Assembly (NCBI RefSeq): GCF_900090275.1
Contig: NZ_LT607755.1
Span: 4,526,001 to 4,590,000 of the forward strand
Source of the DNA: Micromonospora zamorensis
GTDB lineage: Bacteria > Actinomycetota > Actinomycetes > Mycobacteriales > Micromonosporaceae
Direction of reading: 5' to 3'
Length of the DNA stretch: 64,000 nucleotides
Position 1 is the stretch's first letter. Each line of letters opens with the position of its first letter. This document shows, piece after piece, positions 51,651 to 54,386 of the stretch. The position numbers were made by a program, and so were the translations under genes. The notes below the pieces were generated by a model. That model saw only the letters and a program-made list of their open reading frames with translations, did no database searches and was not told the origin of the DNA.

Positions 51651-52937
51651 CTACGGGGTCAGGCGGTGCAGGTCACGCGGGAACGCGGTGACCTCCCGGA
51701 TGTTTGCCGCACCGACCAGCCGGGCCACGAACCGTTCCAGGCCGATGGCGAAACCACCGTGTGGCGGCATGCCGTGCCGGAACGCGTCCAGATAGCCGGC
51801 GTACGGCTCGACCGGCTCACCCCGGGCTGCCAACGCCGCCAGGTAGTCGGCGTGCCGGTGCAGCCGCTGCCCGCCCGTGACCAGCTCCAGACCACGGAAG
51901 AGCAGGTCAAAACCGTTCGAGTACGCGGGCCGCTCCGGGTCGGGGTGGGTGTAGAACGGTCGCTTCGCCATCGGGTAGCCGGTGACGAAGAGGAAGTCGG
52001 AGCCGTGTTCACGGCGGGCCCACTCGCCCAGCGCCCGTTCGTGGGCCGGCGCGAGGTCCGGCTCGTCGGCGGGCGCGCCGGCGATCGTCAGCGCCTCGGT
52101 GAAGTGCACCTCCGGGATCTCCGTGGGCACCTCCGGCGGCGTGACGCCGAGCGTCGCCAGGGCGCCACCGGCCCGCTCCCCCACAGTGCCCAGCATCCCG
52201 GCCACCGTGTCGCGCAGCACCCGCATCACGTCGTGGTGGTCGGCGACGAAGCCCAGCTCCGCGTCGAGCGACGTGTACTGCGCGAGGTGCCGGACGGTGT
52301 CGTGCGGCTCGGCCCGGAAGACCGGCCCCACCTCGTAGACCCGTTCGAAGACGCCGACCATCAACTGCTTGTAGAACTGCGGCGACTGGGCCAGGTACGC
52401 GGGCCCACCGAACCAGTCCAGCGCGAACACGTTCGCCCCGCTCTCGGTGGAGGAGTTGACCACCTTCGGGGTGTGGATCTCCACGAAGTCCCGGGTGTCC
52501 AGGGCGGCCCGGAAGCCGGCCACCGCCGCCGCCGAGATCCGCAGCGCCGCCGACCGGGTGGGGTGCCGCAGCGCGGTGGGCGCGTTGTCGAGCTGGGTGG
52601 GCAGGCTCGCGGTCAGCGCCGGCCGGTACAGGTCGAACGGTGGCGGCACGGCGGGCGGCCCCAGTGGACGTACCGTCGGGTCGGTCAGCTCGACCCCGGC
52701 GGGCGCCGTTTCGTTCGCGGTGACCGTCGCGGTGACCTCGACGACCGTCTCCTCGGGGAGTTTCTCCAGCTCGGCGCGGACGGTCGGGTCGGTGACGACC
52801 ACCTGGGCGAGGCCGGTGGCGTCGCGCACGATCAGGAAGGCCACCGACTTGAGCAGGCGGCGGCGGTGCACCCAGCCGGCGATCCGCACTGTCGTGCCGA
52901 TCCGGGTGGGCAGGTGGTGGGACAGGGTTCGTTGCAT
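51651..52937 (-). CDS. aspS: Aspartyl-tRNA synthetase, archaeal/eukaryotic type
   Basis: 428 residues, far shorter than the roughly 590-residue bacterial AspRS because the GAD insertion is absent. N-terminal OB-fold (GTTVRIAGWVHRRRLLKSVAF), then the class II core: IHTPKVV (motif 1), FRAEPHDTVRHLAQYTSLDAE (motif 2) and GFAIGLERFVARL (motif 3). His in GWVHR and Pro in NETAPAG fall where non-discriminating archaeal AspRS have His26/Pro84, so it may also charge tRNA-Asn for GatCAB. ATG has GAGGAG upstream. A T-box leader precedes it. Confidence 0.9.
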   Translation of the reverse strand: MQRTLSHHLPTRIGTTVRIAGWVHRRRLLKSVAFLIVRDATGLAQVVVTDPTVRAELEKLPEETVVEVTATVTANETAPAGVELTDPTVRPLGPPAVPPPFDLYRPALTASLPTQLDNAPTALRHPTRSAALRISAAAVAGFRAALDTRDFVEIHTPKVVNSSTESGANVFALDWFGGPAYLAQSPQFYKQLMVGVFERVYEVGPVFRAEPHDTVRHLAQYTSLDAELGFVADHHDVMRVLRDTVAGMLGTVGERAGGALATLGVTPPEVPTEIPEVHFTEALTIAGAPADEPDLAPAHERALGEWARREHGSDFLFVTGYPMAKRPFYTHPDPERPAYSNGFDLLFRGLELVTGGQRLHRHADYLAALAARGEPVEPYAGYLDAFRHGMPPHGGFAIGLERFVARLVGAANIREVTAFPRDLHRLTP

Positions 52938-52975
52938 GGCGGGCTGCTCCTCGGTCGATCGCCACGCCTTCGCCG

Positions 52976-53010
52976 CCCTGGGGTGGCGAAGCGTCGCATC
53001 AGCCCCAGGG
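52976..53010 (-). promoter_or_regulatory. Hairpin downstream of the aspS T-box
   Basis: CCCTGGGG and CCCCAGGG form an 8-bp stem directly after the antiterminator. A further CTTCGCC/GGCGAAG pairing is possible. There is no T tract, so it could be a GC-rich attenuator or part of a ribosome-site sequestering fold. Confidence 0.45.
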
Positions 53011-53011
53011 A

Positions 53012-53252
53012 GGTGTGGGCGAGCGGGAACCTCGCGGTGCCACCACACCTTCACCCCCGCCGAAGCGGGGGCCTCGTTCGTCGCCTGATGACCGGGGCCA
53101 GCCGGGCGGGCTCTACTGGGCACGGGTGACCCGCAACCGTTCTTCCCGCAGCTCGGGAGGGTCTTCGCACACCGGCGCCAGACCGCCTCTCAGCACCGGC
53201 GGCTCTCTGCGCTGGCGGGTCGGCGCGCTACTCGGCTCCGTCGTCGCTGTTG
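53012..53252 (-). ncRNA. T-box riboswitch of aspS (tRNA-Asp specific)
   Basis: Read on the minus strand: AGTA (53229-53232), an 8-bp helix GCGCGCCG/CGGTGTGC, CGCCAG/CTGGCG, the apical AGAGAGCCGCCGG (53196-53208) with GAGAGGCGG, then GAAGACC with specifier GAC (53161-53163) opposite AGTA. Stem III is CCCCCGC-TTCG-GCGGGGG (53054-53071). The antiterminator is GGTGTGG, bulge TGGCACC, GCG/CGC, CCACACC (53012-53018 end). The variable bulge base C pairs with G73, the tRNA-Asp discriminator. The leader is about 315 nt up to the aspS ATG. Uncharged tRNA-Asp should raise aspS expression. Confidence 0.9.
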
Positions 53253-53258
53253 GCGGTG

Positions 53259-53288
53259 ACCGTAGCACCCGAATCCCGCTCGTGTGAC
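53259..53288 (-). promoter_or_regulatory. Candidate promoter of the aspS leader
   Basis: -35 GTCACA (complement of 53283-53288) and -10 TACGGT (complement of 53259-53264) with an 18-bp spacer place the start near 53252, just ahead of the T-box. The opposite strand of 53289-53390 carries the lipA promoter. Confidence 0.5.
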
Positions 53289-53390
53289 GCACATTTTCGA
53301 CACTCCGGTGTCCGGCGTCACAACGTTCGGGGCGTGACGCCGGTCGCCCGACGCACATAGACACCCGCCGTCCGGCGTAGGCTCGTTTTC

Positions 53391-54386
53391 GTGACGATCG
53401 AGCACTCCGCGCCGACGACCGGCCAGGCAGCGCGCACCGCAACGGCGGCCCCCGAAGGGCGGCGTCTGCTGCGGATCGAGGCGCGCAACGCCGAGACGCC
53501 GATCGAGCGCAAACCGCCATGGATCAAGGTCAAGGCCAAGATGGGTCCGGAGTACACCCAGCTGCGTGGGCTCGTCTCGCGCGAAGGGCTGCACACCGTC
53601 TGCCAGGAGGCCGGCTGCCCCAACATCTACGAGTGTTGGGAAGACCGGGAGGCCACCTTCCTCATCGGTGGCGACCAGTGCACCCGGCGCTGCGACTTCT
53701 GCCAGATCGACACCGGTAAGCCGGCCGAATTCGACGCCGACGAGCCGCGTCGTGTCGCCGAGTCGGTGGTCTCGATGGGGCTGCGGTACGCCACCATCAC
53801 CGGCGTCGCCCGTGACGACCTGCCCGACGGCGGTGCCTGGCTGTACGCCGAGACCGTCCGACAGATCCACGCCCTTCAGCCGGGTTGCGGCGTCGAGCTG
53901 CTGATCCCCGACTTCAACGCCGTTCCCGAGCAGCTCGCCGAGGTCTTCGGCTCCCGTCCCGAGGTGCTGGCCCACAACGTGGAGACCGTGCCGCGCATCT
54001 TCAAGCGCATCCGGCCGGCGTTCCGCTACGACCGCTCGCTGGACGTGATCCGCCAGGCCCGCGCCGACGGCCTGGTCACCAAGAGCAACCTCATCCTGGG
54101 CATGGGCGAGGAGCGGGCCGAGGTTTCGCAGGCGCTGCGCGACCTGCACGAGGCCGGCTGCGAGCTGATCACCATCACCCAGTACCTGCGCCCCTCGCCC
54201 CGGCACCACCCGGTGACCCGCTGGGTCAAGCCGGAGGAGTTCGTGGAGCTGCGCGAGGAGGCCGAGGAGATCGGCTTCGCCGGGGTGATGAGCGGGCCGC
54301 TGGTGCGTTCGTCGTACCGGGCCGGCCGGCTCTACAAGCAGGCGCTCGACGCCCGCGCCGGAGTGGCCGTCACCACCGCCGGCTGA
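53391..54386 (+). CDS. lipA: Lipoyl synthase
   Basis: 331 residues. Auxiliary cluster cysteines in [12 protein letters not shown] (71, 76, 82) and radical-SAM cysteines in CTRRCDFC (97, 101, 104) are all present; the RSSY-type end ([10 protein letters not shown]) is conserved too. It inserts two sulfurs into octanoyl groups made by LipB. GTG at 53391 is 7 nt after TAGGCT (53378-53383), with no Shine-Dalgarno. lipB and lipA are neighbours in mycobacteria; here aspS is inserted between them on the other strand. Confidence 0.96.

Follow-up and report, generated by a model that had tools for sequence, protein, structure and literature searches.

The leader of aspS2, a second, archaeal-type aspartyl-tRNA synthetase (AspRS) gene of Micromonospora zamorensis, was confirmed to contain genuine T-box parts on the minus strand. 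This Asp-specifier T-box is predicted to bind uncharged tRNA-Asp, to free the ribosome-binding site and to raise synthesis of the enzyme (rough probability 0.85). An initial annotation had read the aspS leader as a T-box, and the Rfam match, the anatomy, the Asp specifier and a matching tRNA-Asp support that reading. Three points are added here: aspS2 is a second AspRS gene beside a bacterial-type one, its T-box leader is spread through much of the Micromonosporaceae, and its output is probably translational. The parts in the window (the whole stretch of DNA analysed, 64,000 nt) are as follows:

53012..53253, minus strand: extent of the RF00230 match, which covers the T-box aptamer and antisequestrator (whole model at 49.6 bits, E 5.7e-10)
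53149..53249, minus strand: Stem I, long form (covariation in 55 leaders)
53229..53232, minus strand: AGUA, 5' side of the specifier loop (sequence; alignment A2 of the leaders)
53161..53166, minus strand: GAA and GAC opposite AGUA in the specifier loop (sequence)
53161..53163, minus strand: specifier GAC (Asp) (GAC in all 78 long-form leaders of a search that did not fix the triplet)
53188..53208, minus strand: AGAGAG bulge, apical stem and distal loop of Stem I (RF00230 consensus alignment; conserved in alignment A2)
53203..53208, minus strand: AGAGAG bulge alone (sequence)
53107..53148, minus strand: Stem II with AGUAGA internal loop at 53117-53112 (sequence; AGUAGA in 41 of the 48 leaders with long Stem I and Stem II)
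53072..53105, minus strand: region of a probable Stem IIA/B pseudoknot (judged by eye on 35 leaders)
53054..53071, minus strand: Stem III with UUCG loop (sequence)
53012..53049, minus strand: antisequestrator with UGGCACC bulge at 53042-53036 (98.8 % of cells paired, 29 double changes, 57 rows)
53039, minus strand: bulge C, predicted to lie opposite tRNA G73 (sequence)
53009..53014, minus strand: ACCUCC, a putative anti-Shine-Dalgarno that overlaps the 3' arm of the antisequestrator (4 pairs with the Shine-Dalgarno in the window)
52947..52951, minus strand: Shine-Dalgarno AGGAG (sequence)
51651..52937, minus strand: aspS2, archaeal-type AspRS, 428 aa (NF003483, 528 bits, cut-off 353)

Read 5' to 3', the base of Stem I is followed by a GGAG/CUCC helix, the specifier loop, two upper helices, the AGAGAG bulge and the distal loop, and Stem I in turn by Stem II, the probable pseudoknot, the UUCG-capped Stem III, the sequence GAAG and the antisequestrator (GGUGUGG-UGGCACC-GCGAG...CUCGC-CCACACC; 53049-53012, minus strand). 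The aspS start codon is ATG (52937-52935, minus strand). All T-box parts that had been named beforehand were located in the minus-strand sequence. By analogy, the region of AGAGAG and distal loop in Stem I may represent the elbow-binding motif.

A search with RF00230, suggested in the initial annotation as a check, yielded in E-value mode a significant match (model positions 1-219; 53253-53012, minus strand), though one below the curated gathering score of 93, and a standard Rfam scan at that score therefore found no T-box in the leader. Throughout the genome, RF00230 detected two T-boxes only, the second of which (27.8 bits) precedes an IleRS-like frame named by eye from its N-terminus. Among 150 sampled Micromonosporaceae genomes, 121 have a T-box match at E 0.01 or better and none has one above the Rfam cut-off, ileS T-boxes included; this cut-off is therefore unusable as a criterion in the family and hides its T-boxes. 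An E-value-mode scan of 12 relatives matched four leaders, one of them labelled ultrashort (L107), and matched neither of the two minimal-form leaders described below. A search of a phage collection gave no match. Other T-boxes of the family (L002, L035, L036, L038, L039) have UGGU bulges and, judged by eye, an IleRS-like frame downstream; their Stem I is long in some and short in others.

Archaeal-type aspS2 (E 1e-80) is present in 112 of the 150 sampled Micromonosporaceae genomes. A count across the phylum, in which four candidates per genome were scored and distant copies may be missed, gave at least two of 396 sampled genomes, both of the window's genus. The gene is located between lipB and lipA. 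Of 80 named loci, 76 have a divergent lipA start upstream (the remaining four are short pieces) and 68 have lipB downstream. All genera looked up among the named relatives belong to the Micromonosporaceae, the nearest named relative being Micromonospora cabrerizensis (98 %), which agrees with the actinobacterial host proposed earlier.

Leaders were read from 110 of the 112 genomes (G005 and G094 were left out, their genes being cut), and 109 of the 110 keep the bulge motif, L051 being the exception. In L066 (G111), the aptamer is replaced by GC-rich short repeats and the antisequestrator is kept. In an alignment of 55 leaders, comprising one per 93 % similarity group and omitting L092 with its insertion, 91.7 % of the Stem I cells are paired and 19 of 27 pairs have changed on both sides; covariation amounts to 0.376 versus 0.152, with none of 500 shuffles as high. 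For the antisequestrator (57 distinct rows, five leaders skipped), 29 double changes compare with 7.5 (0/500 shuffles) and a covariation of 0.172 with 0.093 (0/500); two of the five measures were reached by shuffles, namely varying pairs (40/500) and pair types (135/500). Both the compensatory changes and the conserved specifier and helices that the initial annotation had proposed to look for among Micromonosporaceae leaders are present. With the Stem I model, 70 of the 80 named loci are recovered, a result that is not independent because many loci are from the same species as the training rows; the ten others are six Catellatospora loci with ultrashort forms and four Micromonospora loci that have no match to Stem I. 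Chance resemblance in a GC-rich leader would accord with the ordinary, uninformative fold energy of the entire leader (z -1.07), but its probability is close to nil in view of the Rfam E-value, the covariation of Stem I and antisequestrator, the constant GAC and the recovery by the Stem I model.

As a separate observation, a palindromic repeat (GGAAGGGCCCCC...GGTAGAG...GGGGCCCC) lies within the Stem II hairpin of L014 and L015, and the same repeat replaces Stem I upstream of aspS2 in the Micromonospora loci L182, L196, L219 and L233. In L182 (M. sonchi), the entire T-box upstream of aspS2 is gone.

The specifier had been named as GAC (Asp) and was indeed seen at 53163-53161; a pattern search that left the triplet free retrieved GAC in every one of the 78 leaders with a long specifier loop, and the loop pattern itself occurs in 8 of 2180 shuffled leaders. 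Of 31 other leaders with the bulge, 30 carry GAC followed by a purine within a hairpin loop 6-10 nt long, as do 273 of 3000 shuffles (9.1 %) in this search, which required UGAC plus purine; the hairpin assigned to L097 is probably the wrong one. The base after GAC is C in the window (45 C and 33 A among the 78 long forms), and described T-boxes have a purine at this place (PMC7583486). The specifier matches the controlled gene, GAC standing before aspS. In the window's genome, where 30 of 72 tRNA matches were examined as loci, there are two tRNA-Asp genes among these loci, each with a GUC anticodon and a G (G73) after the acceptor stem, and the variable position of the UGGC bulge is able to pair with this discriminator, as had been proposed for the window. 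The further expectation of a constant GAC/C combination held for GAC and failed for C: across the family, 90 of 109 leaders have C at the bulge position and the other 19 have U. Since 16 of the 19 genomes with a UGGU bulge encode the identical tRNA-Asp, with G73, such bulges could form only a G-U pair with it. T-box anatomy and Asp specificity are well supported, and direct support for the Asp T-box comes from anatomy, conservation, covariation, specifier and matching tRNA. Outside the window, over 20 tRNA genes lie densely clustered at G000:C1:3923592-3926370 (L131, L142, L147); one of them is for a second tRNA-Asp, which differs from the conserved one.

The downstream gene had been taken to encode an archaeal-type AspRS, and the protein models concur: besides NF003483, TIGR00458 scores 338 bits, just under its cut-off of 368, and the bacterial model TIGR00459 scores 153, under its cut-off of 374. 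Judged by these scores, the product is an archaeal-type and not a bacterial-type AspRS. Its best solved chain is 1n9w, named as non-discriminating archaeal-type AspRS-2 and presumably from Thermus. The second AspRS of the genome is bacterial-type (NF001750, 842 bits), and its gene lacks a T-box, since only two T-boxes were found genome-wide. The leader might instead sense tRNA-Asn, or both tRNAs, and so serve a tRNA-dependent route to asparagine like that of Clostridium acetobutylicum; for that species, PMC4206432 cites a second AspRS under T-box control linked to Asn. In line with this, no AsnRS above the family cut-off was found in the window's genome, tRNA-Asn likewise has G after the acceptor stem, and 1n9w, the best structural match, is of the non-discriminating kind; a search of AspRS2 for diagnostic residues of tRNA-Asn charging gave nothing useful. 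The specifier, however, is GAC and not AAC in all 78 long forms, and sensing of tRNA-Asn appears very improbable.

For the Asp T-box we infer tRNA binding, amino-acid sensing and a translational output. The GAC specifier would pair with the GUC anticodon of tRNA-Asp, the tip of Stem I would hold the tRNA elbow, and pairing of the UGGC bulge with the 3' end of uncharged tRNA would stabilise the antisequestrator. Once tRNA-Asp is charged, opening of the antisequestrator would release its 3' arm (ACCUCC) for pairing with the Shine-Dalgarno (SD) sequence, and many relatives have a T-box strand that could mask the start codon as well.

Control is probably translational, because the antisequestrator arm of most relatives carries an anti-SD and because no terminator-like site is present in 52900-53420 (the window's leader only). 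The ileS T-boxes have been described with their anti-SD in this position (PMC1262725). In the relatives, the 3' arm of the antisequestrator continues into ACCUCC, complementary to the SD, and the longest Watson-Crick run with the SD averages 5.4 for the arm versus 3.3 for other leader segments. Six or more arm-SD pairs are possible in 59 of 106 leaders (four in the window), and 831 of 3498 control segments pair with the SD as well as the observed arm. In predicted folds of 94 leaders, mean SD exposure increases from 0.19 in the free state to 0.46 with the antisequestrator forced, rising by more than 0.2 in 47 leaders and falling by more than 0.2 in four. All nine T-box-strand bases able to pair with the start region are found in 38 of 95 leaders (mean 7.1, shuffled 5.5), which is a hint; the values for L003 and L006 are void, the automatic start finder having taken the wrong ATG.

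For the window's own copy, the case for a translational output step is weak. Its predicted SD exposure falls from 0.50 to 0.26 when the antisequestrator is forced, and its T-box strand pairs with the start-codon region in the free fold. An insertion precedes the SD and forms the hairpin CCCUGGGG...CCCCAGGG between antisequestrator and SD in both forced and free folds. This strong hairpin, together with the long Stem I that is typical of transcriptional T-boxes (PMC7583486), would suit an Asp T-box acting on transcription, in which charged tRNA lets a hairpin after the antiterminator stop RNA polymerase. Most relatives lack the insertion, the anti-SD is conserved among them and the window's leader has no terminator-like site, all of which renders transcriptional control improbable. 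The insertion, the weak SD pairing and the lacking gain in SD exposure could also be signs that the switch has decayed in this strain and that aspS2 is made constantly, the T-box being lost or cut in some Micromonospora; such decay is unlikely, given that the aptamer parts and bulge of the window are intact and that its sister leader L006 has the same T-box parts. Counted against the Asp T-box as a whole are the sub-cut-off Rfam score, the weak output step of the window, the U bulges, the C after GAC, and three exceptional loci, namely L051 without the bulge, L066 without the aptamer and M. sonchi L182 without the T-box.

Sorted by spacing and form, the 110 leaders comprise 48 with long Stem I and Stem II, 30 long without Stem II, 30 ultrashort, one unclear and one with none. 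On a quick tree of the 110 proteins, made without bootstraps, Stem I switched between long and ultrashort seven times, or at least four times if only well supported (starred) branches are counted. A review states that T-boxes with a truncated Stem I cannot do without Stem II (PMC7583486). Two leaders from the genus that holds Actinoplanes aureus, L075 (G143) and L093 (G140), have lost the upper Stem I in one clean deletion, as evident from alignment with sister leaders; GAC is thereby placed in the loop of GGG-AGUGACGC-CCC, the codon is kept, Stem II is absent and the form spans 103 nt. In light of the Stem II rule, these two leaders represent either a new minimal form or decaying ones. Their antisequestrators differ by one paired change, which speaks for upkeep but may be inherited. 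Among 67 genomes of the genus, the pattern of the minimal form matched eight times in seven genomes, and the two known matches alone stand before a T-box. We tentatively propose, as a possibility somewhat short of even odds, that the Asp T-box of Micromonosporaceae has been shrinking: the upper Stem I, which reads the tRNA elbow, would have been lost several times independently, GAC moving intact from an internal to a hairpin loop, and the two Actinoplanes leaders, also devoid of Stem II, would be T-boxes of about 105 nt that read tRNA-Asp by anticodon and acceptor end alone, against the Stem II rule. We know of no smaller T-box. Four forms (long, Stem II-less, ultrashort and minimal) precede one orthologous gene while tRNA-Asp hardly changes, so that the T-box parts needed for tRNA reading become directly testable.

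To our knowledge, T-box control in Actinobacteria has been described mainly for isoleucine. If the present reading is true, actinobacterial translational T-boxes extend beyond this amino acid, and the spare archaeal-type AspRS found in 112 of the 150 sampled family genomes gains a regulatory role. Three elements are already known separately: T-boxes for Asp, T-boxes acting on translation and T-boxes on spare synthetases. Among the papers listed in a literature search, no report of the three combined was seen; TBDB, for which a class II model was run over Actinobacteria reference genomes (PMC7778990), may list such leaders. A 2014 survey described extra AspRS genes in Actinomycetales, its main text naming T-boxes only in Clostridium references (PMC4206432). 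The extra AspRS under T-box control cited there for Clostridium acetobutylicum, together with GatCAB, resembles aspS2, but that control is linked to Asn, whereas the aspS2 leader carries an Asp codon. Bacillus cereus has a T-box on a spare class I LysRS, likewise a second synthetase of archaeal kind beside a bacterial one; it concerns Lys in a Firmicute and was shown to work (PMC2916919). The transcriptional Asp T-boxes in the TBDB specifier table (PMC7778990) share GAC, which accounts for 94 % of the Asp entries there, and differ in that no terminator was found here; the table gives no phyla for these entries. The actinobacterial ileS class II T-boxes (PMC1262725, PMC7583486) share the 5' leader position, the lack of a terminator (none in the window's leader), the existence of both long and ultrashort Stem I and, as far as most relatives of the window are concerned, a probable anti-SD in the antisequestrator arm. 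The aspS2 leaders differ from them in specifier, in enzyme and in the duplicated archaeal-type synthetase that they precede, and here long, ultrashort and Stem II-less leaders all occur before one and the same orthologous gene.
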